Source of the DNA: Campylobacterales bacterium
GTDB lineage: Bacteria > Campylobacterota > Campylobacteria > Campylobacterales > QNZT01
Length of the DNA: 43,174 nt
Direction of reading: 5' to 3'
NCBI GenBank assembly: GCA_027023405.1
Contig: JALVVN010000019.1
Location: 1 to 43,174, forward strand
The notes under the pieces were generated by a model that was given only the letters and a program-made list of their open reading frames with translations, ran no database searches and had not been told where the DNA came from. Shown piece by piece: positions 6,142 through 28,117 of this stretch; position 1 is the stretch's first letter; every line of letters begins with the position of its first letter. A program made the translations under genes and the position numbers.

Positions 6142-8344
6142 ATTCGACTTTGTGAAGTCTATCATCGGGTTTGTCGTTGATGGGTCTTGTCCAAAAGATT
6201 TGAAGTGGTACACCTAGTGGAGATTTTGGCCACTCGATACCCGCACCGTATGATGCTCGTTTGATATCGCTAAAAGAGTTCTCCCCTGTCATGCCGTAGT
6301 CATAGAAAGCAACACCGCGAAGCCCCATCTTTTTGACAAGTGGGATACTCAACTCCACAGAAGAGGTTGCCATCCGTTTTGCTCCCTGGAGATTCCCCTC
6401 GGAGTCTTTGGGTGCGAGCCATCCATATTTGTATCCTCTAACGGTACCGTATCCACCCATATAGAGCTTTTCATTGAGTGGGATAAAGCCCTTATCTTCC
6501 ATGCTGCTGACGCGAAGTTTTGCACGCAATATCAAATCATAATCAAATTGATCCTCAAAGCCGTGATAGAACTTAATAACCGCATTGTGTTTGAGAAATT
6601 TTGAATCTCCACCTACACCTGCGTATTCGAGTGAGTAAGCGGCGTGAATACCGTGTCTAGGTAGATAATAGTCATCGGTATTGTCGTAGGTAATTGCCGG
6701 GATAAAAGAGCTCTTTTTGAAGTGCCCCGGTTGATAGAAGATATTATTTTTCAAAGAGTCATTGACATCAGTCAGCTCCGTATCCTCATAGAGGTAGGTG
6801 AGTGAGACATGAAGATTCCTGCCAATCTTTCGACCAAGTCCTAAAGATCCACCGAGTGATTTCTCTTTGTAGTTGATGTAGTCATAGTCATTTCGGTATA
6901 TATTTCCGCTCAGGCTGTAAAGAGAGTCAAAGAGCCGTGGATTGTTGAAGTTGATACTTCCTTTGAGGCGTTTTTGTGAATAGTCTATCGTAGTACCGAG
7001 TTCGATACCGCTTCCCAAAAAGTTTCTATCGGAGATACCGGCATTGACACCGAGTCCGTCATAGCCGTCACTATAAGTGATACCGCCCATAATACTTCCG
7101 GTACTTGCTTCATCTACCTTCACCAAGAGATCGACTTGATCCTCACCTACCTGTTTGGGAATGATTTGAACATTGTTGAAGTAGCCGGTTCGCTTTAGTG
7201 CGTTGAGAGAATCGACGAGATCTCCTCTAGTGAACTTCTCTCCCTCACTAAGATAAAGTTCCCGTCTAATGACACTATCTTGTGTGCGAGAGTTGCCAGA
7301 AATGGTGATATTATGTACAAAGACCTTTTTATTAGGTTGTACTTTGTAGGTGATATTGACGGTATGTGTCGTTTTGTCAGGTTGGACATCGGGCACAATA
7401 GAGGCAAAAGCATAACCCTTGTCACTGACCACTTTTTGGATTTGGCTCATATCGTGTCGGAGTTTGGTCACATCAAATACTTTATGACTTTTGAGTCGAA
7501 AAGAGTCTTTGAGTTTGTGAGGGTTTGCGATCGTCGGGTCAATCTCAACATTGATGGCACCGACGGTATAGGGTTCACCCTCATCGATCTTATAGGTGAG
7601 GGTTGCAGTATAGTCAGAGAAATTGGTCTTGAGATAGGGTGGATAGACTTTGGCATCCATAAAACCGTGTTCAAGATAAAACTCCTTGATCCTTTCCGCA
7701 TCAAATTTGAGCTGATCCGCTTTAAGTTTACCGTCATCTCGTCCGAAGAACCATCCGGCAAATTGGCGTTGTCGATTGGCAATACGATCTTTGATATCGT
7801 CATAGGTAAAGTGTTTTGCTCCGATGAGATTCACTTTTTTGATATAGACAGGTTCACCCTTTTTGACGATGACATTGGTTTCGACGCTTCCGGAGTTGAG
7901 CGGTTTCTCTTCTATTTTGACACTAGAGTCAAAGTAGCCCTCATCTTGTAGCTGTTTGGTGATCTTCTCTTTGACATTTTTCGCTTTGGTGGCATCATAG
8001 AGATCACCCTTTTTGATCTGCGCCTCTTTGAGTGTTTTTTCTGACTGATCTTTGTCCAGTCCTTCGACATTGACATGAGAGACGACAGGTTTCTCTTTGC
8101 AGTGATAGATCAGCACACCATCTTGATCATCAACCCAAATATCATCAAAATAGTGTTGTGCATAGAGGCGTTTGATACTGGCATCTACCTTGAGGTCATC
8201 AACGGCTTCACCTCTTTTGAGACCGGTGATCTCCTTGGCAATATCGGGTGACATATGTACCAAACCTTCAAAACGAATATCTTTGATAGTTTCAGATTGC
8301 AATGAGAGTGCAAGTATTGATGAGAGTAGAAGGGTTTTTTTCAT
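6119..8344 (-). CDS. bamA: Outer-membrane protein assembly factor BamA
   Basis: BamA is the essential core of the beta-barrel assembly machine in the outer membrane. The 741-residue protein starts with a signal peptide (MKKTLLLSSILALSLQS), followed by five POTRA domains to about residue 410 and a C-terminal 16-strand barrel. The lid-loop motif is present as TVRGYKYGWLAP, and the chain ends in HKVEFNLGHRF with the expected terminal aromatic. The frame is open 15 codons further upstream, but the ATG at 8344 has AAGGTA upstream and opens the signal peptide. It is divergent from tyrA with an 84-bp shared promoter region. Confidence 0.97.
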   Translation of the reverse strand: MKKTLLLSSILALSLQSETIKDIRFEGLVHMSPDIAKEITGLKRGEAVDDLKVDASIKRLYAQHYFDDIWVDDQDGVLIYHCKEKPVVSHVNVEGLDKDQSEKTLKEAQIKKGDLYDATKAKNVKEKITKQLQDEGYFDSSVKIEEKPLNSGSVETNVIVKKGEPVYIKKVNLIGAKHFTYDDIKDRIANRQRQFAGWFFGRDDGKLKADQLKFDAERIKEFYLEHGFMDAKVYPPYLKTNFSDYTATLTYKIDEGEPYTVGAINVEIDPTIANPHKLKDSFRLKSHKVFDVTKLRHDMSQIQKVVSDKGYAFASIVPDVQPDKTTHTVNITYKVQPNKKVFVHNITISGNSRTQDSVIRRELYLSEGEKFTRGDLVDSLNALKRTGYFNNVQIIPKQVGEDQVDLLVKVDEASTGSIMGGITYSDGYDGLGVNAGISDRNFLGSGIELGTTIDYSQKRLKGSINFNNPRLFDSLYSLSGNIYRNDYDYINYKEKSLGGSLGLGRKIGRNLHVSLTYLYEDTELTDVNDSLKNNIFYQPGHFKKSSFIPAITYDNTDDYYLPRHGIHAAYSLEYAGVGGDSKFLKHNAVIKFYHGFEDQFDYDLILRAKLRVSSMEDKGFIPLNEKLYMGGYGTVRGYKYGWLAPKDSEGNLQGAKRMATSSVELSIPLVKKMGLRGVAFYDYGMTGENSFSDIKRASYGAGIEWPKSPLGVPLQIFWTRPINDKPDDRLHKVEFNLGHRF

Positions 8345-9260: not shown

Positions 9261-11618
9261 CTAGGAGGCTGTAATAAAATTCTCCAGCTTTTGCGGTGAG
9301 AGGGCATCGCTGAAGAGAAATCCTTGCATCAGGTGGCATCCGTTCTCTTGAAGAAATTTTGCCTGCTCTTTGGTCTCAACTCCCTCGGCAACGATTTGTA
9401 AACTTAGTTGTTGCGCCAAAGCGATAATTGTCTTCGTAATCACGATGTCATCGTGATCGTGCGGAATATCATCGATAAAACTCTTATCAATTTTGAGTTT
9501 AGAGATAGAGAGTTTTTTGAGTCGTGCAAGTGATGAATAGCCGGTACCAAAATCATCGATAGCGGTTTGAATGCCGAATGCTTTGAGATTGGCGATGATC
9601 TCTTCGGTATCGTCGATATTCTCCATCAAGAAACTCTCAGTCACCTCGAGTTCAAGGTGTGCCGGATTGATGCCGGACTCCTCGACGATCGCTTTGATTG
9701 TTTGCTCCAAGTGATTTTGGGTGAGTTGCTTGGAGGAGATATTGACAGAGATTTTGATATTGAACCCTCTCTCTTCAAAGGTTTTTATTTGTTGGCACAC
9801 TTTTCTAATAATTGATTTACCGATTTTGACCATCATACCGCCATCTTCTGCAAGCGGGATAAAGTGTTCTGGTCCAATAACACCATATTTAGAATGTTCC
9901 CATCTTACAAGTGCTTCAAGAGAGACAACTCGATTGGTTTGTGTATCGATGATCGGTTGATAATAGAGGCTTAATGCATCTTGGTCGACCGCATTTCGAA
10001 GGTCATTGGTAAGCTCTAGTTTTTCATTGGCATCGGCAGTCATATCTTCGGTAAAGTAGCGATAGACATTTTTCCCCTCATGTTTGGCTTTATACATTGC
10101 AAGATCGGCATTTTTGATCAACTGCTCAATCTCACTGGCATCATCCGGAAAGATCGAAATACCGACACTGGCACCGATATAACCCAACTCATCTTTGAGC
10201 TTAATAGGAGTAGAAAGGGTATCGATAATCTTTTGTGCGACGATTGAAGGATATGAGACATCTTTGATATCATCAAGAATCACTGTAAACTCATCACCGC
10301 CAAGTCGAGAGACGACATCCTCAGCTCTGAGAATATTTTTGACACGCGATGCAACCTCCTGAAGGAGGAGATCCCCATAGTCGTGTCCGAGTGTGTCGTT
10401 GATCATTTTAAAGTTATCGAGATCGATAAACATCAATGCCACTTTGGTTTGGTTTCTGTTTGCCTTGGAGATGAGTGATCTGAGGCTATTATGGAACATG
10501 GTGCGGTTGGGTAGCGATGTGAGTGTATCATAGTGAGCCAGTTTATTGAGCTTGGCTTGCGTCTTTTTCTGGCTTGTAATGTCGGAGTAGATACCTCCGA
10601 TATACTCTTTGTCATCTTTGTGAATCAAAAATTTGTGAATATTAAAGTACTTCTCCTCTTTGGAGGGAAGTGTCAGTTTGGCTTCGATGAGATCTGTACC
10701 TCGCACTTTGGTTCGCTCATCACTCTCTTTGATTCGTTCAGTGAGATTGCTTGGAATGATAGTATTGTAATCCATACCTTCAATAGACTTTTTTCCAAAG
10801 AGTTTGTTGAGGTAGAGATTTGCGAATACAATACGGTTTTGATTATCTTTGATGAAGGCACCGGCAGGCAAATTGCGCATAAAGAGTGAGAATTGCTCTT
10901 GTGACTCTTTAAGTGCGAGTTGTGCCTCTTTGATCTCAGTGATATCTTTGAGAAAGCCGGTGATTTTGATAGGATTATTTTTCGCATCATAGGTCGCTTC
11001 TCCGCTGATGACAACCCAACGGGATTTTCCATTGACTTTGATACGATGTTCGACTCTAAAAGTCGGGGACTTCCCACTGAGATAATTTTCCAATGCTTTA
11101 ATCACTTCTGCTTTATCACGGGGATCAATGCGTTCAATCCAACTCTCTATTTGTGGTTTGATGTTGATAGAATGAACACCTAAAATCTCTTTAAAGCGAT
11201 TGGAGTAATATGCCTCTTTATTGACGATATCCCAAGTCCACAATCCCTCATTGGTAGATTTTGAGGCGGTTTCATAGCGATCTTTGAGGTTTTGGATCAA
11301 TTTTTTTGCTTTAATTTGTTCGGTGATATCAACAATAATGCCCAATAATCCCTCATCGGTTTCTGATAGATAGATTATTGTATCTACCTCTTTGTCAAAT
11401 TCATCCAAGACTTTGAGCTCTAGTTTAGTGTTGGTTTTGAGATTGTAGGATGAGATAGTATCGAGTAGCCGCTTCTTATTCTGTCCTGCGAAACGATCAA
11501 AAGATTGATTGGTTTGAAATTGTTTTTGGTTATGTTTTTTGTAAAACATCGGTAAAGGAAATGTATCTATCAGTGTCTCGAGAAGCTTAACATCTTTTTT
11601 GTTGGATGAAAATAGCAT
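9261..11618 (-). CDS. PAS-PAS-PAS-GGDEF-EAL cyclic-di-GMP signalling protein
   Basis: About 785 residues with no membrane helix. There is a short N-terminal PAS-like segment ending in IIVDITEQIKAKK, a second PAS/PAC unit (residues ~120-235, ending GFLKDITEIKEAQ), a third (ending IYSDITSQKKTQ), then a GGDEF domain with an intact active site (SRLGGDEFTVIL) and an EAL domain with SLEALVRW, the Asp-Asp loop DDFGTGYSSL and AEGVET. Both catalytic sites look complete, so it could make and break cyclic-di-GMP; the PAS units presumably sense redox or small molecules. The frame opens at ATG 11630, but ATG 11618 has GAGG at the right distance and is preferred. It is a single-gene unit divergent from dnaE. 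Confidence 0.93.
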   Translation of the reverse strand: MLFSSNKKDVKLLETLIDTFPLPMFYKKHNQKQFQTNQSFDRFAGQNKKRLLDTISSYNLKTNTKLELKVLDEFDKEVDTIIYLSETDEGLLGIIVDITEQIKAKKLIQNLKDRYETASKSTNEGLWTWDIVNKEAYYSNRFKEILGVHSINIKPQIESWIERIDPRDKAEVIKALENYLSGKSPTFRVEHRIKVNGKSRWVVISGEATYDAKNNPIKITGFLKDITEIKEAQLALKESQEQFSLFMRNLPAGAFIKDNQNRIVFANLYLNKLFGKKSIEGMDYNTIIPSNLTERIKESDERTKVRGTDLIEAKLTLPSKEEKYFNIHKFLIHKDDKEYIGGIYSDITSQKKTQAKLNKLAHYDTLTSLPNRTMFHNSLRSLISKANRNQTKVALMFIDLDNFKMINDTLGHDYGDLLLQEVASRVKNILRAEDVVSRLGGDEFTVILDDIKDVSYPSIVAQKIIDTLSTPIKLKDELGYIGASVGISIFPDDASEIEQLIKNADLAMYKAKHEGKNVYRYFTEDMTADANEKLELTNDLRNAVDQDALSLYYQPIIDTQTNRVVSLEALVRWEHSKYGVIGPEHFIPLAEDGGMMVKIGKSIIRKVCQQIKTFEERGFNIKISVNISSKQLTQNHLEQTIKAIVEESGINPAHLELEVTESFLMENIDDTEEIIANLKAFGIQTAIDDFGTGYSSLARLKKLSISKLKIDKSFIDDIPHDHDDIVITKTIIALAQQLSLQIVAEGVETKEQAKFLQENGCHLMQGFLFSDALSPQKLENFITAS

Positions 11619-15237: not shown

Positions 15238-15277
15238 GTGTTACAGCAGGATACTACAGGAAAAAAAGTGTGCGAAA

Positions 15278-15367: not shown

Positions 15368-16480
15368 ATGCAACGCACTACACTTCAACTCTTTTTTGCT
15401 CTCTCTTTTTTATCGGTAACACTGTTTCACGGATGTGGTTCGAGCCATGCTGTTGCTAAATCTGATGTGACACATCGCAAAACAAATCAGCCATCTGCTC
15501 AACAAGCATCAACAAAAAAATCAACGCCAAAACCAATGACTCTCGCAGAGCAGTTGAAAGTGGATCAAGATGGGGAAGGTGAATATATCACTTACTGGAA
15601 ACTAGATGATAGTCATCTTGTAGTAGAAAAGAAAAAGGATACTTATTACAATTTGTATCTCTACTCACTCAAAGATTCAAAAGTAACATTTGATAAATAT
15701 TTGATTGACTCTTCCGAGCCTATAACAGATCTAAAGAAGAGTCCGGATCAAGAGGGTGTGATGATTTTCAAGAGAGGTGAAGAGAGCGTTGCTTTCGATT
15801 ATGCAAATCTTCACTATGTTGTTGATAATGGTGATATAAATAGTAGTGCATCTCCTCTTGAACAGATTCGTGCGTTGATCAAAAGTGGCAATGCAACTTA
15901 CCTGTGTGTAGGCGATAGTACCCGCTCTAATGATCCCACTTATGATAACGGTCATATTGTAGAGATGATAAGAGATGCGCTAGCACCTTATGGTGTTAAA
16001 GTCAAAAATATCTCTGTGACGGGAATTTTGCTCAAAGAGGTCGTGGAGCATCGCTGGGATCGGCTAAATATGGATACGATAGTGAGTGAAATTGCAGGAG
16101 ATGGATCTCACACGATCGTTGATATCGATTTGGGGATTAATGATTACGGTGAGTTTACGCAGAAGATTGATGCAAATATGCGTAAACTTGTTCAAACACT
16201 TTTAGCAAAAAAACCAAAGGTGCATATTTTATTGGAGGTTCCGGGACGAACCTATTATGATAAAGAGGAGATGAGTAACTTTTTTATCCGCACTTACAAG
16301 AAGATTGCTGAAGATTATCATCTTGCTTTTTTGGATATTCCTACCCATGCGATGCCACTGGATAAACTTGATCTAAGTTGGTATCGTATAACTAACGGTA
16401 GGCAAGATCAGACACATTTGAGTATGAAAGGACAAAAGATTGTCGCACACTATATCATCTCTCAATTGCTCGGTGAATGA
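15368..16480 (+). CDS. SGNH/GDSL-family hydrolase lipoprotein
   Basis: A 370-residue putative lipoprotein: signal peptide with lipobox ending LFHGC (C23), then a low-complexity linker rich in Ser, Thr, Lys and Gln to about residue 60. The C-terminal domain (from about 175) shows the SGNH blocks: VGDST with nucleophile S184, LGIND with N258, and DQTHLSMKG with the D347/H350 pair. This predicts an esterase or acyl-hydrolase on the cell surface or in the periplasm; the substrate is unknown. Between them, residues about 71-153 (YNLYLYSLKDSKVTF to AFDYANLHYVVD) look like one copy of the repeat found in the lipoproteins at 26930 and 25681. The 3' end overlaps the convergent truD by 19 bases. Confidence 0.8.
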   Translation: MQRTTLQLFFALSFLSVTLFHGCGSSHAVAKSDVTHRKTNQPSAQQASTKKSTPKPMTLAEQLKVDQDGEGEYITYWKLDDSHLVVEKKKDTYYNLYLYSLKDSKVTFDKYLIDSSEPITDLKKSPDQEGVMIFKRGEESVAFDYANLHYVVDNGDINSSASPLEQIRALIKSGNATYLCVGDSTRSNDPTYDNGHIVEMIRDALAPYGVKVKNISVTGILLKEVVEHRWDRLNMDTIVSEIAGDGSHTIVDIDLGINDYGEFTQKIDANMRKLVQTLLAKKPKVHILLEVPGRTYYDKEEMSNFFIRTYKKIAEDYHLAFLDIPTHAMPLDKLDLSWYRITNGRQDQTHLSMKGQKIVAHYIISQLLGE

Positions 16481-18421: not shown

Positions 18422-19384
18422 CTATTCTACTATTGCACTCTCACCGCTATCTTTTTGAGTGTTTCCGTTTTCATCGACCCATATTGTGAGTTCGTCTATA
18501 TCGGTTGCTTGGACTTCGACTTGATGATTTGGTTCGTCATGGTATTTGGCTAAGCCACCTTTTTGCAGTTTGCCGTTAGTATCATAGACAATCGGTGTTT
18601 GGGAGGCGTCATAGTCGGGATCAACTGTCAAAAACAGACTACCGTCGATACTGATCTTCCCGCTGATAGGATAATTTTCGTAACCACCATCTTCATGCTC
18701 TGTGATACGCTCGACATAATGTTGCGCTATCACAGAGTGTGCTATACCTTTTGTATGACCGGTCGCATTTATATCTGTTGTAGTTGTGTAGCTCTTGTCG
18801 TTTGATTCCTCTGTAATGGTGCCACCTTTTTTGATGGTGGCATCCATGTTTGTATCACTGATGGTAAAGTCGGTATCAAATGTGGTCACGGTTGTCTCGC
18901 TGTTAGAGGCATCATCGTAGAGTGTTTTAATAGTTATCTTTCCATTTATAGTTCCATCACCATCATCACACTGTAGTGCACTTATTTTCATGGTATGGGT
19001 AATAGGTTCAGTAGGGGGTGTGGGGGTAGAGTTGATTTGGCTGATATATTTTTTATAGTCATCACCCATTTCCATTATCATAGAACCACTTTGATCACAC
19101 TCTTCTTCGATTTTGCCTTGATGATTATCAGCTACGATACTTCTGGAGCGTTTTGTTGTAGTATCCGTTTGGGGCTCTTGATTGGTTGAGTGTGAGATTT
19201 TATGGATTGTTTCATCTACATTAGTTTTATCTTTGTCAACCAGTTTCTTTGCAATACTCTTAATACTTTTGATCGATTTAGACTCTTCAACCTTTGTATT
19301 TTTGTCTGAGTCATGGTGTCCGCTACGGCAACCGTCTAATATCATAGATGCTACGACTATCGATAGTAATCCCATTTTTTTCAT
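18422..19384 (-). CDS. Hypothetical lipoprotein with a calcium-loop-like C-terminus
   Basis: I do not recognise a family. The 320-residue product begins with a signal peptide (MKKMGLLSIVVASMILDGC) whose lipobox cysteine is C19. A Lys/Ser/Thr-rich linker with repeated KSIKSIAK follows. The rest is predicted beta-rich, with regular Thr/Asp-rich strands (TTVTTFDTDFTISDTN, KSYTTTTDINATG). Two Asp/Gly-rich loops, CDDGDGTINGK and WVDENGNTQKDSGE, resemble EF-hand or SdrD-type calcium-binding loops. It is the last gene of the left lipoprotein group but has its own promoter (19405-19426) matching the island's shared architecture, and an AAAAGGAG ribosome site. Confidence 0.75.
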   Translation of the reverse strand: MKKMGLLSIVVASMILDGCRSGHHDSDKNTKVEESKSIKSIKSIAKKLVDKDKTNVDETIHKISHSTNQEPQTDTTTKRSRSIVADNHQGKIEEECDQSGSMIMEMGDDYKKYISQINSTPTPPTEPITHTMKISALQCDDGDGTINGKITIKTLYDDASNSETTVTTFDTDFTISDTNMDATIKKGGTITEESNDKSYTTTTDINATGHTKGIAHSVIAQHYVERITEHEDGGYENYPISGKISIDGSLFLTVDPDYDASQTPIVYDTNGKLQKGGLAKYHDEPNHQVEVQATDIDELTIWVDENGNTQKDSGESAIVE

Positions 19385-19404: not shown

Positions 19405-19426
19405 ACTATATTATAAAAAAGTGTCT
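19405..19426 (-). promoter_or_regulatory. Island promoter 1: AGACACTTTTT-N5-TATAGT
   Basis: On the minus strand AGACACTTTTT (19426-19416), five bases, and TATAGT (19410-19405) precede the lipoprotein start at 19384. Over 23 bases it differs from the promoter at 21362-21383 in only two positions. The second, upstream half-site is degenerate; that place lies inside the coding end of the preceding gene. It gives the 18422-19384 gene its own promoter. Confidence 0.6.
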
Positions 19427-20205
19427 CATTTGATGACACTCAGATCTACCATCGGCAAGTGGGTATAGTCATACTCCCTCACATCTTTCCCGTTACTGAC
19501 TACCAGCAATCCTTTGTGTGCGATGAGATCATAGCAGTCGATATCGGCACGCGAACTTTTTCTGTTGAGTGTGATAGAGACAGTGGTACTGTTTGTCTCA
19601 TCCCGTGTGGTATTGACATCAAAAAGTTTGAGTCCACCTGCACCGTCACAGACAAAAAGCTTATCTCCATCTATGCCCAAACCGGAGGGTGAGTACATAT
19701 TTTTTTTCATGATAAACTTGGGATTGAGCGGATCATGGACATCTAGGACTTGTAGGGTGTTTTCACCGCTGTTGAGACGACATCGGCTCCCTTTGTTTAG
19801 GGTGACAAATGCCAAGTCATCTTGTACCACCACCGGATCACAACTTCTTAAATGGGTAAATTGGGCGACTTTGTTTAACTCCTTGTCATAAATATAGACA
19901 CCACTCTGGGCACCGATATAGAGGTAATCTTTATAGGCTCGTAGTGTCTCTACATCAAAGGGTACCGGTTGGGAGATATCGGGCATCGGCGTAGATGGAT
20001 CGCTGATATCAAATGCTTCGATCGTGCGATCATTGAGTGTGTAGAGTCTGTTTCCGACAATCGTAAAACGCGCCATCGATCCGCCTGTACCTGTTGCAGA
20101 AGCGCCATTTGCTGAAGAGCCCGAAGATGAACCGGATGATGAGCTTGATCCACATCCTAGCATGAGTAAAGCGATTAACGATGTTACAATATAAATTCGT
20201 TTCAT
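19426..20205 (-). CDS. LVIVD-repeat beta-propeller-like lipoprotein
   Basis: A 259-residue putative lipoprotein: signal peptide with lipobox LMLGC (C18), then a flexible Ser/Gly linker of about 25 residues. The body contains several LVIVD-type units, recognisable as NRLYTLNDRTIEAFDISDP, DYLYIGAQSGVYIYDKEL, NTLQVLDVHDPLNP and DKLFVCDGAGGLKLFDVN. Such repeats build beta-propeller blades in secreted and surface proteins; binding partners are unknown. A near-perfect AGGAGG site precedes the ATG. It is nine bases downstream of the related gene at 20215, in one transcription unit with 20738. Confidence 0.8.
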   Translation of the reverse strand: MKRIYIVTSLIALLMLGCGSSSSSGSSSGSSANGASATGTGGSMARFTIVGNRLYTLNDRTIEAFDISDPSTPMPDISQPVPFDVETLRAYKDYLYIGAQSGVYIYDKELNKVAQFTHLRSCDPVVVQDDLAFVTLNKGSRCRLNSGENTLQVLDVHDPLNPKFIMKKNMYSPSGLGIDGDKLFVCDGAGGLKLFDVNTTRDETNSTTVSITLNRKSSRADIDCYDLIAHKGLLVVSNGKDVREYDYTHLPMVDLSVIK

Positions 20206-20214
20206 TGTTACCTC

Positions 20215-20724
20215 CTAGTTAAACCAGATATAGAAACCGCTCTCTATACCTGCATCATATCTATAACACTCATCACTCTTGTTTTGCATATCATCGATGG
20301 CTTGTCTTCTGTTGTAAGGGAAGATATCCTCTTTTCGATAGACTGTTTTAATGTCGTGTAGATTGTGGATATCAAGTACGACTAAATCGGTAAAACTATC
20401 AACATAGAGGTAGTCTCCTTTAACTGCCATATCGATATTTCCGGGAATTTCGATAAAACTTAGGTTGAGAGGTTTTTGAGGATTCTTATTGTCGATGATA
20501 TGTATTCCTCTATTTTTTTCATTGATTAGCAGAATATTTCCATCTTTGTAGTTGTAGATCTTTGCCGCTTTTTCGATCTTTTTGGGTGCTATGACTTTGG
20601 GATAATGTTCCCGCAGATCTTTTGCAGAGATTGTGGGAGCCTTTTTGCAAGGATCTTTATACTTGTAATCACAGCCACTAAATATGAAAACGATTATTGC
20701 AATCGCAGACAAACTTTTGAACAT
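20215..20724 (-). CDS. Short LVIVD-like lipoprotein
   Basis: A 169-residue putative lipoprotein with signal peptide MFKSLSAIAIIVFIFSGC (C18). It contains two blade-like units of the same kind as its neighbour: NRGIHIIDNKNPQKPL and DYLYVDSFTDLVVLDIHNL. It is much shorter than the 259-residue paralogue and could not form a closed propeller alone, so it may be a truncated copy or pair with its neighbour. The frame is open to 20769, but ATG 20724 has an AAGGAG site and opens the signal peptide. It is the middle gene of the 21331-19426 unit. Confidence 0.75.
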   Translation of the reverse strand: MFKSLSAIAIIVFIFSGCDYKYKDPCKKAPTISAKDLREHYPKVIAPKKIEKAAKIYNYKDGNILLINEKNRGIHIIDNKNPQKPLNLSFIEIPGNIDMAVKGDYLYVDSFTDLVVLDIHNLHDIKTVYRKEDIFPYNRRQAIDDMQNKSDECYRYDAGIESGFYIWFN

Positions 20725-20737
20725 ATTTTCTCCTTTT

Positions 20738-21331
20738 TTAAAATGCATATCCGATTTTGAGTAACTCAATATCTAAGATAGTAGATTCATCATCCATATC
20801 GATACCGATAGCTCGATAGATATCATTTTTCCCGGCAAAATATCTACCATAAATGAGACCTACACCCCAGTAGTAGCGACTACCTGTTGAAAAAAATCTA
20901 TAACCGACTCCTACACCGAGTCCCAGTTTGGTTGTTTTTTTGTAGCGATCTTCATCCTCTAAAATACTATTGAGGAGTGCGACTCTGCCAAATCCGCTTA
21001 CATAAAAACCGCCAAAGCCGTCACCTAGAAATTTTCGATAGTGGATATCTGTGCTAATGACATCAAAATGTCTTACTGAATCATAATTGCCTTCGTGATC
21101 TTTAAAGAGACCGACATACCACGGTAAAGCGATCTCCGCGTTGTTCTCATAATCAAAATAGGAGAATGTGCCGGATAAGCTTCTTAAATCTTCTTCGGAA
21201 AGTGTTAGGAGTCTTGGGAAATTGAACTCAAATCCATACCTTTTCCCCTCTAAGGGTAGCGGATCGGCATGTAAAAGCGTTGAAAAAGCTATCGTAATAC
21301 CGATAAGGGTAGACAGAAATTTTTGTGCCAA
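20738..21331 (-). CDS. Putative small outer-membrane beta-barrel protein
   Basis: A 197-residue product with a signal peptide (cleavage probably after LLHA, near residue 22). Alternating polar/hydrophobic strands (GFGGFYVSGFGRVALL, LGLGVGVGYRFF, YYWGVGLIYGRYFAG) and a terminal phenylalanine in LLKIGYAF suggest an 8-stranded outer-membrane barrel. No specific family is assigned. It starts at TTG 21331 with AAGGAG five bases upstream. It is the first gene of the left group, transcribed from the tandem-box promoter at 21362-21394 and divergent from the first regulator/kinase pair. Confidence 0.75.
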   Translation of the reverse strand: MAQKFLSTLIGITIAFSTLLHADPLPLEGKRYGFEFNFPRLLTLSEEDLRSLSGTFSYFDYENNAEIALPWYVGLFKDHEGNYDSVRHFDVISTDIHYRKFLGDGFGGFYVSGFGRVALLNSILEDEDRYKKTTKLGLGVGVGYRFFSTGSRYYWGVGLIYGRYFAGKNDIYRAIGIDMDDESTILDIELLKIGYAF

Positions 21332-21361
21332 TGGTTCTCCTTAAAAATATTTGAATAATAT

Positions 21362-21394
21362 ACTATAATATAAAAAAGTGTCCAAAAAGTGTCC
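21362..21394 (-). promoter_or_regulatory. Island promoter 2: perfect tandem GGACACTTTTT boxes and TATAGT
   Basis: On the minus strand two perfect, adjacent 11-bp copies of GGACACTTTTT (21394-21384 and 21383-21373) are followed after five bases by TATAGT (21367-21362), about 30 bases before the TTG start at 21331. The repeats replace a -35 box and repeat once per helical turn, as expected for a dimeric OmpR-type activator. They also lie 50-70 bases upstream of the start of the divergent regulator transcript, so they could act on it too. Confidence 0.7.
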
Positions 21395-21429
21395 AAAATT
21401 AAAAAATATTATGTTTTGTTTCTATTTGC

Positions 21430-21435
21430 TATAAT
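21430..21435 (+). promoter_or_regulatory. -10 box of the first regulator/kinase pair
   Basis: TATAAT lies 21 bases before the ATG of the regulator gene at 21457; an AAGGAG ribosome site follows. No consensus -35 is visible. Confidence 0.5.
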
Positions 21436-21456
21436 GAAGATCGATAAGGAGTTTTT

Positions 21457-22134
21457 ATGCCTGGTAGAGAGTCGCTTTCATTGCTGTATGTCGAAGATGA
21501 AGCGTTGATTCGAAAAAATGCGTTGCTATTTTTGGGGGAGCAGTTTGAGACTTTGTATGAGGCAGACAATGCCTTTAGCGCACTTGAGATCTATCGAGAG
21601 AAAAAGCCCGATATCATTATCACTGATATCTCGATGCCTAAAATGAGCGGCTTGGAGTTGTGCAAAAAGATACGACAAGAGGATAAAAAAACACCGATAA
21701 TTATCACCACCGCACATACCGATACGAATTATCTGCTTGAAGCGGTTGAGTTGCAACTGGTGAAGTATCTTGTCAAGCCCATCAACGCAAAGCGGCTTCA
21801 AGAGGCACTGGAACTCTGTTTTGAACGGTTGCAAGAGAGTGGGAGCAATGTGACACACCTTGCTTGCGGATTTGTCTATGATATGTTTAATCATGCACTT
21901 TTTCATCATGACTCCCCGATCAAACTCACACCTCAGGAGAGCCGATTTTTCAAACTCTTATTAAAATATCCCGATCGTATTTGTACCTACAGGGAGATAG
22001 AGAACTTTGTGTTTGACGGTATGGGCATGAGTGAAAATGCCCTCAAGGTGCTTGTGCGAAAAATACGCCAAAAGACAGATAAAGGCTTGATTGAAAATCA
22101 CTCCAAAATAGGTTATAAAATTGTATCGGCATGA
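21457..22134 (+). CDS. OmpR-type response regulator, copy 1
   Basis: A 225-residue protein: receiver domain about 8-125 with E13/D14, phospho-acceptor D57 in IIITDISMPKM, the TTAHT switch segment and the conserved LVKP lysine; then a winged-helix DNA-binding domain about 135-225 (LTPQESRFFKLLLKYPDRIC, ENALKVLVRKIRQKTD, ENHSKIGYKIV). It is closely similar along its entire length to the regulator at 24953. The gene overlaps the kinase at 22131 by 4 nt. The tandem boxes between it and the divergent barrel gene are the most obvious candidate target. Confidence 0.93.
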   Translation: MPGRESLSLLYVEDEALIRKNALLFLGEQFETLYEADNAFSALEIYREKKPDIIITDISMPKMSGLELCKKIRQEDKKTPIIITTAHTDTNYLLEAVELQLVKYLVKPINAKRLQEALELCFERLQESGSNVTHLACGFVYDMFNHALFHHDSPIKLTPQESRFFKLLLKYPDRICTYREIENFVFDGMGMSENALKVLVRKIRQKTDKGLIENHSKIGYKIVSA

Positions 22135-23558
22135 GAGATAAAACCCTTTTATTCAAACTGCTGTTGATGTTGCTGATCGCAGGTGGGAATTGGTGGTTTA
22201 ATCGTCAAACGCTTTTTGAAAATGATCCGCTGATCTATTCCCACTATTCACTGATCAATATCTCTATTGCTATGTTATCTTTTGGTGTGATTCTCTCTGC
22301 AATCTTTTATAATATGGCGCTCTATTTTTACGGAAGAGATAAACGCTATCTCTACTATTCACTTGCGCAAACTTCAGTGGTGCTCTTTCTTGCTTCGTTA
22401 GATAGCCTACATATCGTTCCACTCAATGAGATCTTTACTTTTAGAAGTTACAAACTTTTTGATATTTCACAGATTGCGATTTTGCTCTTTTTTATGCTCT
22501 TTATCAAGCACTTTTTAACGCTCAATCAAGAAAATAAAAAACTCCTTACTATACTCCATGCGATCATGATTTTGGCGCTCATTGATCTCTTGTGCGTGTT
22601 GCTTTTTTCTCATAGTGTATTGACCCGTTTTTTGCCGATCTTTATCCCTATTTGGTTTGTGATCACAGAAGCCAAACGGCTCATTCCCGCAAAAGATAAA
22701 GCATTCAATATTTTATACTACGGGTGGAATATGGTGATCTTTGTAGGCTTTTTCGTCTATACCAATTTGACAACCTATTTCAACATGGACTTCCCCTATC
22801 TGCATGTCACTTTTGCCTTAGAGTCGATCATCTTTGCCTTGGCGATCGCCTATAAGATCAAGGAGATGCAAGAGGAGAAAGCGATGCAACAGAGCTTGCT
22901 CCTACAACAATCGAGACTCGCCTCTATGGGTGAGATGATCTCCATCATCGCACACCAGTGGAGACAACCTCTCACTCATCTTTTGTATCTCTGTATGAAT
23001 ATGAAACAGAAGATCAAAGAGCCTACATTTTTAGCTGAAAAATTGGAGGAGGGTGAGGATCAGATCGCGTATATGTCGCAAACGATTGAGCAGTTTAGCA
23101 ATTTTTACAATCCGAGCAAAAAGAGGGAGCTCTTCTCGATTCAAGATGCATCTCAAAGGGCATTGACGATAGCCGGTTTTTCATTAAAAAAACAGCATAT
23201 AGATGTGAAGTTTTTTTGCGAAGAGGATTTTGAACAGTTTGGAAACCGGAATGAATTTGAGCAGGTGATCTTAAACCTCCTTCACAATGCACGAGATGTG
23301 TTGATCGAAAGAGAGATCGAAAACCCTTCGATTTGGCTTACGATAGAGAGAGCTGTTGTGAAGATTGAAGATAATGCAGGGGGTATATCTGCTGAAAATA
23401 TGGAGAAAATATTTGAACCCTATTTCACTACGAAAGAGAGGAGTGACGGTATCGGTCTCTATATCGCAAAAGTGATTATTGAAAAGGAGTTTTCGGGTAG
23501 TTTGTCTGTAAAAAACAGCTCTAGGGGTGCACTGTTTGAGATTAGAATGAGATTGTAA
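22131..23558 (+). CDS. 7TM-type sensor histidine kinase, copy 1
   Basis: A 475-residue kinase. Residues about 5-245 hold some seven or eight hydrophobic helices with very short loops, resembling the 7TMR-DISM sensor module without its usual large extracytoplasmic domain. A coiled linker (EMQEEKAMQQSLLLQQSRLA) leads to the H-box SMGEMISIIAHQWRQP with H275, then an ATPase domain with LNLLHNARDVL, IEDNAGGI and SDGIGLYIAKVI. It presumably phosphorylates the regulator whose gene it overlaps by 4 nt. Its 3' end overlaps the paralogous convergent kinase by 17 bases. Confidence 0.93.
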   Translation: MRDKTLLFKLLLMLLIAGGNWWFNRQTLFENDPLIYSHYSLINISIAMLSFGVILSAIFYNMALYFYGRDKRYLYYSLAQTSVVLFLASLDSLHIVPLNEIFTFRSYKLFDISQIAILLFFMLFIKHFLTLNQENKKLLTILHAIMILALIDLLCVLLFSHSVLTRFLPIFIPIWFVITEAKRLIPAKDKAFNILYYGWNMVIFVGFFVYTNLTTYFNMDFPYLHVTFALESIIFALAIAYKIKEMQEEKAMQQSLLLQQSRLASMGEMISIIAHQWRQPLTHLLYLCMNMKQKIKEPTFLAEKLEEGEDQIAYMSQTIEQFSNFYNPSKKRELFSIQDASQRALTIAGFSLKKQHIDVKFFCEEDFEQFGNRNEFEQVILNLLHNARDVLIEREIENPSIWLTIERAVVKIEDNAGGISAENMEKIFEPYFTTKERSDGIGLYIAKVIIEKEFSGSLSVKNSSRGALFEIRMRL

Positions 23559-24969
23559 AACGGGCTCCGTCGGATAGATTTTCAGCGATCAGTTGAGCGC
23601 TAAACTCCTTTTCGATAATTGTTTTAGAGATATAGAGACCGATACCATCACTCTTTTTGGTCGTAAAGTAGGGTTCAAAGATTCGGTTGATATTTTTTTC
23701 TTGGATGCCACCTCCGTTATCGGTGATGGTGACGCTGTTTTGGTGGATAGAAAGTTTGATCGTGCCGTTTTCTATCTCACTGTGTAAGATAATATCTCGT
23801 GCGTTGTTAATAATATTCAAGATCACCTGCTCAAACTCATTTTTGTTGCCAAAGAGCGTAAAATCCCCTTCTGTGGTGATTGTTAAATGAATATTGGCTC
23901 GTTTGAGTGCGGGTTGTGCGATCGTGATCGCTTTGTTGCAGGCATCTGTGACGCTAAACTCCTCCTTCTCTTTAGAGGGGTTGTAAAAGTTAGAAAAGAG
24001 TTCGATCGTTTGCGACATATAGTTAATCTGCGCTCTCCCCTCTTGGAGCTTATCATTGAGAAATGCACGGTTGTCGATCCGCTTTTTCATATTCATGAAG
24101 ATATAGGAGAGGTGTGTGAGGGGTTGTCTCCACTGGTGTGCGATGATGGAGATCATCTCCCCCATAGAGGCGAGTCTGGATTGTTGGAGGAGGAGGGTTT
24201 GCTGTTTGACGCGTTCATCTTCCAAGACCTTCATCTTGTAGGCGATTGCCAAAGAGAGGATGAGTGACTCCATCGCAAAAGTGAGATGTAAAAATGGAAA
24301 ATTGAGCCCCAAATAGACGGTAATATCGGTATAGACGATGATCCCCATAATGATCACCATATTCCATCCGTAGTAAAAGAAGTAGAAGGCTTTATCTTTC
24401 TCTTTGAGGATGCGGTTTGCCTCTGAGATTAAGAGCCAAACGGGGAGGAATACGGGAACGACTCTTGTGATGACACTATGAGAAAGTATGAGCGTGAGCA
24501 GAAGATCGAGCCATGCCGCATATTTGATCACTTCGATCATCATATAGAGCTCTCGTTGATCTTTGGTGATGCCTAGAAAGTATTTGATGAAAAGAACGGA
24601 AAAGAGGAGAATGGCGATATGCGAGATATCAAAGATGAGATGGCTGTGCCCAAAAGTAAAAATCTCATTCAGCGGAACAATGTGAATATTATCGAGTGAA
24701 GCAAGAAAGATAAGCACGGAAAATTGCCCTAAAGCGTAGTAGAGGTAGCGTTTATCGCGGCTGAAAATATAGAGTGCCATGTTGTAGATCGATGCGGAGA
24801 TGATGATACCGAAACAGAGAGTTGCGATAAAGACTTTGAAAGGGGTGTAGTGCGAATAGATCTTGGTGTCCGGCGCAAAGAGGTTGTCGTTTGTGAGGAG
24901 AATAAAGAGAGAAAAAGCGATAAGTAGCAGGAGTTTTATCTGAAACGGCTTGTTAGAGATCGATAACAA
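23542..24969 (-). CDS. 7TM-type sensor histidine kinase, copy 2
   Basis: The paralogue of the kinase at 22131 and the same length, 475 residues. The multi-helix N-terminus aligns end to end (YNMALYIFSRDKRYLYYALGQ against YNMALYFYGRDKRYLYYSLAQ in copy 1), as do the H-box (MGEMISIIAHQWRQPLTHL), the N-box (LNIINNARDII), ITDNGGGI and SDGIGLYISKTI. All catalytic parts look intact. It overlaps the end of its regulator gene by 17 bases and is transcribed from it. The two kinases point at each other, so the four genes form a large inverted arrangement. Confidence 0.93.
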   Translation of the reverse strand: MLSISNKPFQIKLLLLIAFSLFILLTNDNLFAPDTKIYSHYTPFKVFIATLCFGIIISASIYNMALYIFSRDKRYLYYALGQFSVLIFLASLDNIHIVPLNEIFTFGHSHLIFDISHIAILLFSVLFIKYFLGITKDQRELYMMIEVIKYAAWLDLLLTLILSHSVITRVVPVFLPVWLLISEANRILKEKDKAFYFFYYGWNMVIIMGIIVYTDITVYLGLNFPFLHLTFAMESLILSLAIAYKMKVLEDERVKQQTLLLQQSRLASMGEMISIIAHQWRQPLTHLSYIFMNMKKRIDNRAFLNDKLQEGRAQINYMSQTIELFSNFYNPSKEKEEFSVTDACNKAITIAQPALKRANIHLTITTEGDFTLFGNKNEFEQVILNIINNARDIILHSEIENGTIKLSIHQNSVTITDNGGGIQEKNINRIFEPYFTTKKSDGIGLYISKTIIEKEFSAQLIAENLSDGARFTISF

Positions 24970-25633
24970 TCTTATATCCTACTTTTGAATGGTTTTCTAT
25001 GAGGGAGCTGTCACTCTTTTTGCGTAGATTTTTGACGACTGTCTTGAGTGCATCCTCACTCATCCCATACCCGCCAAAGACATAGTTTTCGATCTCGGTA
25101 TAGGTGCACACCCGATCGCGGTATTTGATGAGAAGTTTTAAAAAGAGTGCTTCACGGTTGGTTAATTTTACAACTGAGCCATCTTTTAGGAGGGTATGAT
25201 TGAAGCTGTCGTAGGTGAAACGGTTGTTGAGTTGGATGATGTTTGAACTGTTTTGCTGTAGCTTATCAAAGCAGAGCTGTATCGCTTCGTGTAAACTCTG
25301 CTCATCCAAGGGTTTGAGAAGATACTTCACCAATTGGAGTTCTACCGCCTTTAAAAGATATTCGGTATTGGTATGTGCGGTCGTGATGATGATAGGTGTT
25401 TTGGTATCTTTTTCTCTGATTCTCTCACACAGCTCCAAGCCGTTCATCTTGGGCATAGAGATATCGGTGATGATAATATCGGGCTTCTTCTCTTCGTAGA
25501 TCTCCAATGCGCTAAAGGCATTATCAACCTCATAAATTTCATGAAAGATATCTTCGAGGAAAAGCACCGCATTTTGACGAATAAAGGCTTCATCTTCGAC
25601 ATAGAGTAAAGTAAATTGAGACGCCTGTTGCAT
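24953..25633 (-). CDS. OmpR-type response regulator, copy 2
   Basis: A 226-residue paralogue of the regulator at 21457. It has the same receiver (YVEDEAFIRQNA, D57 in IIITDISMPKM, TTAHTN, LLKP) and the same winged-helix end (LTNREALFLKLLIKYRDRVC, DALKTVVKNLRKKSD, ENHSKVGYKIV). Differences are concentrated in the linker and in part of the recognition-helix region, which would fit divergence in operator preference. It follows the lipoprotein gene at 25681 by 47 bases on the same strand; a TATAAT box at 25670-25665 may give it its own promoter, or it may be reached by read-through. Confidence 0.93.
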   Translation of the reverse strand: MQQASQFTLLYVEDEAFIRQNAVLFLEDIFHEIYEVDNAFSALEIYEEKKPDIIITDISMPKMNGLELCERIREKDTKTPIIITTAHTNTEYLLKAVELQLVKYLLKPLDEQSLHEAIQLCFDKLQQNSSNIIQLNNRFTYDSFNHTLLKDGSVVKLTNREALFLKLLIKYRDRVCTYTEIENYVFGGYGMSEDALKTVVKNLRKKSDSSLIENHSKVGYKIVIDL

Positions 25634-25664
25634 GACTTTTCCTATGACTTCTATTATCTGTTAC

Positions 25665-25670
25665 ATTATA
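25665..25670 (-). promoter_or_regulatory. -10 box of the second regulator/kinase pair
   Basis: On the minus strand TATAAT stands about 31 bases before the ATG at 25633, inside the 47-bp gap after the lipoprotein stop codon. No ACACTTTTT box is seen here, so this pair may be constitutive or depend on the upstream lipoprotein promoters. Confidence 0.45.
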
Positions 25671-25680
25671 TCAAAACAGA

Positions 25681-26868
25681 TTAATCGTACCAGTAGACTC
25701 TCTCTTCGTCAATAGTAGGATCGGCAAAACCGCTATGGTAGTGATACTTGATATACCCCTCTTCACGGTTGATGCGTAGATTTGTAGCAGAATCACCCGG
25801 CCCACCGTCAAGATTTTCATTTGCGACTCTTTTTTCAGGGGTGACGGAAGTGTCGATATTGTAAACACCGGTTATTTTGTGACCGTCACCTCCACGATAT
25901 CCTAAAGTGAAGATAACCAAATATTGATTGCCGATCAACTTTTCAAATCTTTCGATATGTAAGTTTGCCCGAGAATATTTGCTCTTAAGATAACTCATAA
26001 ATGTTGATTTTGGATTATGCGTCTTAGTTTCATTGTCCTTTCTTGAAATTTCTCGTTTGTTGAAGTAGTCATATTGAACTGTGTCATTATGTTTTATGCC
26101 GTCTCTACGATATATTTCATTATATTGCAAAATACCCGGCTTGATAACTTGAATATGCTCATACTGAGCAGCACCCGGTTTGTCTGATGTGACAATATAA
26201 TCTTCAAACTGAGGATCCCACGGATTCTCTAATCCATAAAGTTTGATGCTTCTGGCTTCCATACTATCGGTATATACAAACATACCGCCTTTTTTTGGGG
26301 TTAAGATGATCTCTTTCACGATAGTATCACCCAGTGTGCGATTTTGTATGATGGATTTGAGTTCATCTCTTGATGGGAAGTGATTGTGATTGTCTGAAGA
26401 GCCATCTTCAATTACTTTTTTATGAAAATAGTCATATGTTACAACTTGTGAATTTCCATCACTATTTAGGGTATAGCGCATTTTTCCGTTTCCAAGCATC
26501 TTGACATCAGAAATAGTCTCACCATAGTTTGTTGAAACGACGGTGTACTCCTCTTGAGGGTGGCTTGGATCTTCTAGACCGTACAAAACCAACGCTTCAC
26601 CGTTATCACCGCTAAATAGTACAAAAACACCGCCTCTTTGCGGGGTAAAGGTAAATGATTTGATAGCGTTAAATCGACCGCTTACTAAGGCTGAACGGAT
26701 ACTCTTTTGTGCGATATTCGCCTCTTGAGCTCCTTGCGGATCAACTTGATAATAACTTTTGACAGCTATTCGCTCTGCGGAAACCGTGTTGCCACCACAT
26801 CCACTTAAAGCTAGTGTTCCAATTAGTGCCATACTGAGAAAACCTATTCGATACTGTTGTGTTGCCAT
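25681..26868 (-). CDS. Repeat-containing lipoprotein (YDYF-repeat family), 395 residues
   Basis: No known family recognised. A signal peptide with lipobox ALSGC (C24) predicts lipid anchoring. The body contains ~90-residue repeats: the first, about 68-155, runs from SFTFTPQRGGVFVLFSGDNG to VVTYDYFHKKVIED; the second, about 184-275, runs from IVKEIILTPKKGGMFVYTD to VQYDYFNKREIS; a third, degenerate copy occupies the C-terminus. Each unit has a Gly-Gly-hydrophobic start, a middle YGLEDP-like strand and a YDYF-x-K end. The same plan occurs three times in the upstream protein at 26930. It has its own tandem-box promoter and an AAGGAG site before ATG 26868. Confidence 0.75.
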   Translation of the reverse strand: MATQQYRIGFLSMALIGTLALSGCGGNTVSAERIAVKSYYQVDPQGAQEANIAQKSIRSALVSGRFNAIKSFTFTPQRGGVFVLFSGDNGEALVLYGLEDPSHPQEEYTVVSTNYGETISDVKMLGNGKMRYTLNSDGNSQVVTYDYFHKKVIEDGSSDNHNHFPSRDELKSIIQNRTLGDTIVKEIILTPKKGGMFVYTDSMEARSIKLYGLENPWDPQFEDYIVTSDKPGAAQYEHIQVIKPGILQYNEIYRRDGIKHNDTVQYDYFNKREISRKDNETKTHNPKSTFMSYLKSKYSRANLHIERFEKLIGNQYLVIFTLGYRGGDGHKITGVYNIDTSVTPEKRVANENLDGGPGDSATNLRINREEGYIKYHYHSGFADPTIDEERVYWYD

Positions 26869-26895
26869 TTTAGACTCCTTTTTTTCTTTAACTTA

Positions 26896-26928
26896 ACTAT
26901 AAAGAAAAAAAGTGGCGAAAAAGTGTTT
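26896..26928 (-). promoter_or_regulatory. Island promoter 3: tandem ACACTTTTT-like boxes and TATAGT
   Basis: On the minus strand AAACACTTTTT (26928-26918) and CGCCACTTTTT (26917-26907) are directly adjacent; after five bases TATAGT follows (26901-26896), about 30 bases before the ATG at 26868. The whole site fills the 61-bp gap between two lipoprotein genes. Confidence 0.65.
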
Positions 26929-26929
26929 G

Positions 26930-28039
26930 TTACTCTTGATAGGCAAAATCTCCTGTAAAATAGTCAAAGATCGCTTGACTCTTTAAGCCGTAAAAGTCTG
27001 TTTCAAGTAGAAACTTACCGTTATGCATCGGAGTAATCTTTTTGATAATCTCTCCATTATAGAGAGGTACATCTTTATAGATCTCTTCAACGACTAAGGT
27101 TTTGGCATCGATTCGATAAAAGTCATAGCGTTCCAGTTTATCATCAGCACCTATGGCTAAGATACCGCCATGTTGTAGTGAGTATTGGTATGCTTGAAGT
27201 GTCAATCCATCTTTTGCCACAATGTCACGAAGTCGGTTTTCAATGTTGGTACCGGCACTATCCTCATAGTAAAAATCCCCATTAAAATAGTTCATGATTG
27301 CACTTCTTGATTGACCGTTCTTTTGCGTGGTGATTTTAAACTTTCCATCCTCTAAAGGGCTGATAGAGACAATGATTGATTGTTTTTCTATGGGAACATT
27401 TTTAAACACTTTTTCAAATTTCTTGGTTGCGGCGTCAAATCTGTAGATATTAAAAGTGTCGTTGGTTTCATTGGCTCCGATTGCGAGTATTCCGCCACCG
27501 TGTAGTGAGTATGCATAGGTGATAAATTTCATCCCATCTTTTTCAACAGTAGCTTTGATAGCATCATCAGAGTTGGATTGCTCTTTTTTTAAAGTGCCGT
27601 CGAAATAGTTAAAAATATAGTGCTCGCTTTTACTGTTTTTGTGCGTCAAGATCTTAAATGAACCATTTTCAAGCGGTGTAATCGTTTCAATTGTGCTACC
27701 TGGTTCTATTTTTACATTTTCAAAAGTTTTTTCATATTTGAGTGGATCAGCATTAAATCGATAGATATTAAACCGGCTCTTGTCACGATTTGACCCAATA
27801 GCGATGACACCTTGTGCCCTGAGTGAGAGAGAGAAGGCTTGGAGTTGCATATGATCTTGTGCCAATTTTGTTTGGATAGCATTTTGTGCGTGTTTGATCA
27901 AATTATTTCTGAGTTGAGGGGAGAGCTTTTTTTTGGTTTGCGTTGCGATTTTCTCAAGTTTAGAGGACTCTTTCGCTCCGCTACCACATGCTATCAAATT
28001 GAATATCACCACAATTACCATAAAAGTTCGAATTATCAA
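26930..28039 (-). CDS. Lipoprotein made of three tandem ~90-residue repeats
   Basis: A 369-residue putative lipoprotein: signal peptide MIIRTFMVIVVIFNLIAC (C18), a charged linker to about residue 60, then three clear repeats at about 66-154, 172-260 and 281-369. Shared marks are YSLxxGGILAIGA near the start, FNIYRFDA in the middle, ISPLEDGKFKITT, and an end motif of the FNYFDG / MNYFNGDF / FDYFTGDF type. I know no named domain with this pattern; it may be a beta-propeller or beta-sandwich. The frame is open to a TTG at 28057, but the TTG at 28039 has AAGGAG seven bases upstream and is preferred. It is the first gene of the right-hand group, behind a tandem-box promoter. Confidence 0.78.
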   Translation of the reverse strand: MIIRTFMVIVVIFNLIACGSGAKESSKLEKIATQTKKKLSPQLRNNLIKHAQNAIQTKLAQDHMQLQAFSLSLRAQGVIAIGSNRDKSRFNIYRFNADPLKYEKTFENVKIEPGSTIETITPLENGSFKILTHKNSKSEHYIFNYFDGTLKKEQSNSDDAIKATVEKDGMKFITYAYSLHGGGILAIGANETNDTFNIYRFDAATKKFEKVFKNVPIEKQSIIVSISPLEDGKFKITTQKNGQSRSAIMNYFNGDFYYEDSAGTNIENRLRDIVAKDGLTLQAYQYSLQHGGILAIGADDKLERYDFYRIDAKTLVVEEIYKDVPLYNGEIIKKITPMHNGKFLLETDFYGLKSQAIFDYFTGDFAYQE

Positions 28040-28084
28040 TATTACGCTCCTTATCAATTGAAAAAGTATATCAAATCTTGTGTA

Positions 28085-28117
28085 AGTCTACAAAAAAAAA
28101 GTGTTTAAAAAGTGTTT
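28085..28117 (-). promoter_or_regulatory. Island promoter 4: perfect tandem AAACACTTTTT boxes
   Basis: On the minus strand two identical 11-bp copies of AAACACTTTTT (28117-28107 and 28106-28096) are followed after five bases by TAGACT (28090-28085), a weaker -10 match in the same position as TATAGT in the other three. The start codon at 28039 lies about 45 bases further. Confidence 0.6.

Follow-up and report, generated by a model that had tools for sequence, protein, structure and literature searches.

In the phosphate regulon of Escherichia coli, the winged-helix regulator PhoB acts at the pho box, in which two tandem 11-bp half sites of the CTGTCAT type replace the -35 element at a fixed distance from the -10 element. 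Systems of related design have been described in the Campylobacterota. In Campylobacter jejuni, the OmpR-type regulator of DccRS (Cj1223c-Cj1222c) activates a handful of genes for periplasmic and membrane proteins (PMC9449129). In Sulfurospirillum, PceS/PceP relies on direct repeats overlapping the -35 region, as shown by electrophoretic mobility shift assays (PMC7755780). The sigma-70 promoters of C. jejuni carry A/T-rich tracts upstream of the -10 element and no -35 box, a pattern found at approximately 89% of promoters (PMC3656092). Here, we analyzed a stretch of 43,174 nucleotides (contig JALVVN010000019.1 of the Campylobacterales bacterium assembly GCA_027023405.1), referred to as the window, in which four promoters of an envelope-gene island carry 11-bp boxes at a constant distance from the -10 element. 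We propose, with a probability of about 0.78 based on comparative sequence analysis, that the boxes serve as operator for a conserved two-component regulon in which 7TMR-DISM kinases and OmpR-type regulators would control surface proteins by class II activation.

Four promoters of the window carry boxes at a fixed distance from the -10 element

The box is an 11-bp unit with the core ACACTTTTT. The main sites, located on the minus strand and read directly as one or two boxes, five bases, and the -10 element, are 21394-21373 (GGACACTTTTTGGACACTTTTT, TATAT, TATAGT), 28117-28096 (AAACACTTTTTAAACACTTTTT, TTTTG, TAGACT), 26928-26907 (AAACACTTTTTCGCCACTTTTT, TTCTT, TATAGT), and 19426-19416 (a single AGACACTTTTT, TATAA, TATAGT). 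The gap of exactly five bases at all four sites had been reported in a preliminary description of this DNA and was found unchanged, as were TATAGT at three sites and TAGACT at the fourth. Pairs of boxes are present at three sites, but the degenerate second box previously assigned to 19426 is not: the 11 bases upstream agree with ACACTTTTT in just 2 of its 9 positions, and the site is therefore single. The start of its one box coincides with the stop codon of the gene before it (19426-20205). The pattern MCACTTTTT-N5-TAKA was matched four times in the window, versus 0.02 matches expected in shuffled sequences, and CACTTTTT-N3-CACTTTTT had three exact matches. A further pair of CACTTTTT sequences, at 15263(-)/15302(+), was considered as a terminator hairpin and rejected since its stability was no greater than that of shuffles.

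As stated in the preliminary description, a lipoprotein or barrel gene lies downstream from each of the four promoters. Lipoboxes were seen in the lipoproteins encoded from 25681, 26930, and 18422, and the 197-residue product of the remaining gene was modeled as an 8-strand barrel (mean pLDDT 68, pTM 0.64; best Foldseek matches OmpA, NspA, and OmpX). The two regulators encoded in the middle of the island, RR1 and RR2, are also of the expected OmpR/PhoB type. Both contain a receiver domain (PF00072, E values of 1.5e-28 and 4.3e-29) with the phospho-acceptor aspartate, D57, which is invariant across 12 relatives, and a winged-helix domain (PF00486, 37.0 and 34.9 bits for a cut-off of 26.2). NCBIfam provided no specific name for RR1 or RR2. 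The kinases HK1 and HK2 both match PF07695 (7TMR-DISM_7TM) and PF02518 (kinase ATPase) above the cut-off.

Both kinase-regulator pairs of the window, as well as two of its lipoproteins that resemble each other, are old duplicates, which raised the possibility that the promoters are recent copies of one region and that their shared boxes need no selection. This is extremely improbable, as the boxes are nearly identical whereas the genes and flanks behind them are unrelated or only distantly alike, and as other genera have such sites before genes of other families. In particular, the lipoproteins encoded from 25681 and 26930 are no more than distantly related, so that recent copying does not explain their shared promoters.

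The paired box is rare in the genome

The preliminary description had suggested a search of the genome and of its relatives for the paired box associated with a -10 element, and both searches mostly returned sites preceding genes for exported proteins. Pattern search of the 2.03-Mb genome revealed four exact copies of CACTTTTT-N3-CACTTTTT, the three of the window and one on contig 7. The paired box followed by a -10 element was found, with at most one mismatch, at six sites, all intergenic, which precede five lipoprotein or barrel genes and the gene of a third regulator, RR3. Allowing two and three mismatches added one and two sites, respectively; the reversed pattern was matched twice with up to three mismatches and never with one or none. 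The site at C7:80445 (-10 element TATATT) is located upstream of a lipoprotein gene. Contig 28 harbors two back-to-back paired sites, one with TATAAT before a lipoprotein gene and the other with TACAAT before the gene of RR3, a paralogue of the window regulators displaying 43-44% identity with RR1. The regulon, which had been called local, thus has sites on at least three contigs of its own genome and recurs across the Campylobacterales.

Other matches were discarded as chance occurrences: the single box at C2:53916 falls within a gene, as does that at C9:119332, in a cluster of ribosomal protein genes, and C18:38899 has no -10 element. A surE-like gene (G000:C9:55818-55848; L165, L033) is associated with two boxes containing 2 mismatches, with the -10 element three bases away rather than five.

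An LVIVD-repeat lipoprotein is encoded downstream from the kinase of RR3. This kinase (L032:7123-7611, G000:C28) is truncated after residue 76, whereas the version of the same genus is intact (470 residues). RR3 may be an orphan regulator driven by other kinases.

The box is conserved before genes for exported proteins

Across the family (22 genomes), ACAYTTTTTNNACAYTTTTT-N5-TANNNT was matched 34 times with up to 1 mismatch, versus a single match for the reversed pattern. Replacement of ACAY by CAAY, which preserves the T-tracts, the spacing, and the -10 element, also reduced the number of matches to 1. In 399 genomes of the order, the exact motif was found 32 times and the control was not found. 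When pairs of CACTTTTT were counted for gaps of 0 to 25 bases, a peak was observed at gap 3 (13 matches versus a mean of 3.2 at the other gaps), and TAnnnT followed exactly five bases on in 11 of these 13 pairs. Classification by eye of the genes downstream from the 34 family sites, based on N-termini, identified lipoprotein or signal-peptide genes in 27 cases and regulator genes of the same family in 6; the last site was intragenic.

These counts bear on the possibility that the boxes belong to ordinary sigma-70 promoters of the Campylobacterota, in which case T-runs spaced by 11 bp would be generic. The boxes do sit in the region where a periodic pattern replacing the -35 box is documented in C. 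jejuni (PMC3656092). However, generic periodic T-rich promoters do not explain a motif whose family count falls from 34 to 1 when ACAY is replaced in the search pattern, and the targets, nearly all exported-protein or regulator genes, are not a random sample. Moreover, the periodic promoters occur genome-wide and have no conserved ACAC element, whereas the double box is restricted to a gene set. This explanation is therefore very improbable.

Conservation was also apparent at individual loci. In relatives, the motif immediately precedes orthologues of the lipoprotein gene at 20215, with the paired box between the lipoprotein gene and that of an RR1-type regulator. The barrel orthologue of genome G002 keeps a variant of the box (CCACTTTTTAGCCACAATTT-TAAGA-TAAACT), CCACTTTTTAGCCACCTTTT-TTATC-TATACT is present upstream from the orthologue of the lipoprotein gene at 25681 in G013, a genome of the same genus, and a gene resembling that at 18422 has a perfect pair, ACATTTTTTTAACACTTTTTTCATTTACAAT, in G019.

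Double boxes are repeatedly found with secreted PF09826 beta-propeller proteins of 600-850 residues (the 'KKGWQLIG' family; loci L357, L279, L272, L263, L265, and L266).

Pairs of ACATTTTTT were detected in the Arcobacteraceae near loci encoding the regulator, a 7TM kinase, and a TonB receptor; the system therefore extends past the family, in a form in which the box has drifted. At L358, L360, L361, L365, and L366, the regulator/7TM-kinase family adjoins large exported proteins resembling TonB-dependent receptors and small HTH-like genes; at most of these loci, the ACATTTTTT pairs front the HTH-like gene.

The box is linked to a single regulator clade

A maximum-likelihood tree (short search) of 72 members of the regulator family placed RR1, RR2, and RR3 in one clade of 19 members (SH-aLRT of 99), which includes two Sulfurovum species. 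The motif was present within 600 nt for 14 of the 19 members of the clade, versus 1 of the 53 regulators outside (Fisher p = 5e-10). Across the 399 genomes, a clade regulator (E <= 1e-70) was detected in 15 of the 18 genomes containing the exact motif and in 70 of the 381 others (p = 1.4e-8). Four of the five remaining clade members (RR2, its G013 orthologue, the G002 regulator, and the second G017 copy, with 3 mismatches) have a nearby variant or a more distant site.

Several observations weigh against our proposal. No recognizable site is found near the fifth clade member, L089, and no box lies closer than 600 nt to the RR2 gene. The motif is present in G006, G025, and G031, in which no clade regulator was detected; the first of these genomes is 84% complete, and in the other two a related regulator adjoins the site. 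The promoter box of the lipoprotein gene at 26930 is not kept upstream from its orthologue in G013. Finally, the half site of Campylobacter DccR, the closest analogue for which a promoter was read, is reportedly (W)TTCAC and differs from ACAYTTTTT.

The motif genomes lacking a clade regulator and the position of RR2 would also be accounted for if the boxes were operators of another regulator, encoded outside the window, the neighboring regulators being bystanders. We judge this unlikely, since the tree strongly associates the motif with one clade, including members from other families such as Sulfurovum, and since the box directly precedes the gene of the regulator itself at RR3-type loci.

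Locus L276 (G017:C11) contains two RR3-type regulator genes (10647-11342 and 15513-16238) approximately 5 kb apart, identical in aligned sequence, one of which has a decayed first box. This pair is a recent duplication.

Locus layouts and a predicted leaderless regulator mRNA

The loci display two layouts. In type A (RR1-like), the regulator gene is divergent from a lipoprotein operon, and the double box located between them points at the operon. In type B (RR3-like), two double boxes stand back to back, one directed toward a lipoprotein of the 'GVMNNP' type and the other toward the regulator gene. In six genomes, the end of the -10 element of type B loci is exactly 6 nt from the ATG codon of the regulator gene (Table 1). 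With the -10 element at this distance, the RR3-type regulator mRNA is predicted to be leaderless, and probably is. An exported-protein gene at G011:C61 likewise has its -10 element 6 nt before the ATG codon. The boxes of type A are mostly ACAC/ACAC and those of type B ACAC/ACAT or CCAT, a difference that could possibly enable discrimination between paralogous regulators.

Table 1. Coordinates of the genes and promoters under study.
Feature	Position	Strand	Comment
Paired box (GGACACTTTTT x2) + N5 + TATAGT	21362..21394	-	Promoter of barrel/LVIVD lipoprotein operon, divergent from RR1
Paired box (AAACACTTTTT x2) + N5 + TAGACT	28085..28117	-	Promoter of lipoprotein 26930-28057
Paired box (AAACACTTTTT CGCCACTTTTT) + N5 + TATAGT	26896..26928	-	Promoter of lipoprotein 25681-26868
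Single box AGACACTTTTT + N5 + TATAGT	19405..19426	-	Promoter of lipoprotein 18422-19384
RR1, OmpR-type response regulator (REC + Trans_reg_C)	21457..22134	+	
HK1, 7TMR-DISM histidine kinase	22131..23558	+	
HK2, 7TMR-DISM histidine kinase	23542..24969	-	58% identical to HK1
RR2, OmpR-type response regulator	24953..25633	-	65% identical to RR1
Outer-membrane barrel (signal helix + 8 strands)	20738..21331	-	Predicted structure
Lipoprotein	20215..20733	-	Weak LVIVD-repeat match
Lipoprotein	19426..20205	-	Same operon as 20215..20733
Lipoprotein	18422..19384	-	
Lipoprotein	25681..26868	-	Distant paralogue of 26930..28057
Lipoprotein	26930..28057	-	
-10 element 6 nt before regulator ATG	L032 (G000:C28) 6438-6452; G013:C47; G010:C143; G009:C183; G017:C11; G021:C332		

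Proposed mechanism

According to our model, the 7TMR-DISM membrane kinases would phosphorylate the OmpR-type regulators RR1, RR2, and RR3. Two regulator molecules would bind head-to-tail to the two 11-bp half sites, of consensus ACA(C/T)TTTTT-NN-ACA(C/T)TTTTT, which would replace the -35 element five bases upstream from the -10 element. The bound regulator would then recruit RNA polymerase by class II activation. The predicted targets are surface lipoproteins (some of them LVIVD beta-propellers) and a small barrel protein of the outer membrane, to which RR3-type loci add their own regulator gene. We infer binding by RR1/RR2/RR3-type regulators, activation over repression, and class II geometry from features visible in the sequences: the motif, its fixed spacing, rarity, and conservation, the class of its targets, and its link to one regulator clade. 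Comparative genomics lends good support to the main proposal of the preliminary description, that of an OmpR/PhoB-type regulon in which 11-bp direct repeats cover the -35 region: the box is conserved before envelope genes, both orthologous and analogous, and is linked to one clade, which contains the two window regulators.

The clade regulators could instead bind the boxes and act mainly as repressors by covering the -35 region. In relatives with type A loci, the boxes are also 5 nt from the start codon of the regulator gene, on the other strand, and binding could shut that gene. In contrast, nearly all sites keep the five-base spacing to the -10 element, as is typical for class II activators, whereas the position of repressor sites usually varies; DccR of C. 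jejuni, which has the same geometry, is an activator. Repression as the main mode of action thus appears improbable, and an autoregulated surface-protein regulon widespread in the Campylobacterales is our best reading of the data.

Comparison with described systems

The window resembles DccRS in combining an OmpR-type regulator with few targets encoding periplasmic or membrane proteins. The Campylobacter promoter that we take to be that of dccR, chosen for its hemerythrin neighbors (cj1224), reads ATTCAC-ACTAAA-TTTACA, an 11-bp repeat, before TATAAT. Here, a distance of 13 nt separates the start of the second (C/T)AC from the -10 element, as in the window boxes. However, the presumed DccR shares only 25-29% identity with RR1 and RR2, the DccR kinase has no 7TMR-DISM domain, unlike HK1 and HK2, and the target genes differ. 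The Campylobacter-like genomes that were searched yielded no member of the box-linked clade at E <= 1e-70. Orthology of the window regulators with DccR was rejected on the basis of this result and of the low identity. With the same geometry but low identity, another kinase, and another half site, the system would work like DccRS without being DccRS.

PceSP is also a two-component system of the Campylobacterota that associates a seven-helix membrane kinase with an OmpR-type regulator. It differs from the window system by its consensus, CTATW-N17-CTATW, which the boxes do not match, by an extra periplasmic domain in the PceS kinase, and by its control of tetrachloroethene respiration genes, the targets of the window being surface lipoproteins. 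The NCBIfam PhoB models gave the window regulators 84 bits, far below the cut-off of 296.

No earlier description of the box or of the regulon, and no described target for this kinase-regulator family, was found in the literature searched, in agreement with the preliminary view of the regulon as undescribed. The regulator clade, its box, and the regulon are thus apparently new, although the architecture is of a kind known in the phylum (DccRS, PceSP) and from PhoB.

Implications

A broader scheme may be put forward tentatively, as we hold it to be somewhat doubtful: an order-wide surface-sensing family in which kinase and regulator would control adjoining beta-propeller lipoproteins, barrels, or TonB receptors via the ACAYTTTTT double box, with a leaderless self-activated regulator mRNA and cross-wired paralogues distinguished only by the choice of C or T in the box.

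The proposed operator provides a precise binding element for a kinase-regulator family abundant in environmental Campylobacterota. Through it, numerous 'hypothetical' surface lipoproteins, among them beta-propeller proteins of the LVIVD and PF09826 types, are connected to a single control system, and the association of box and regulator clade is a means of predicting regulons in other genomes. Since two or three paralogous regulators per cell appear to share one box, the system also offers a handle on insulation versus cross-talk in two-component signaling.

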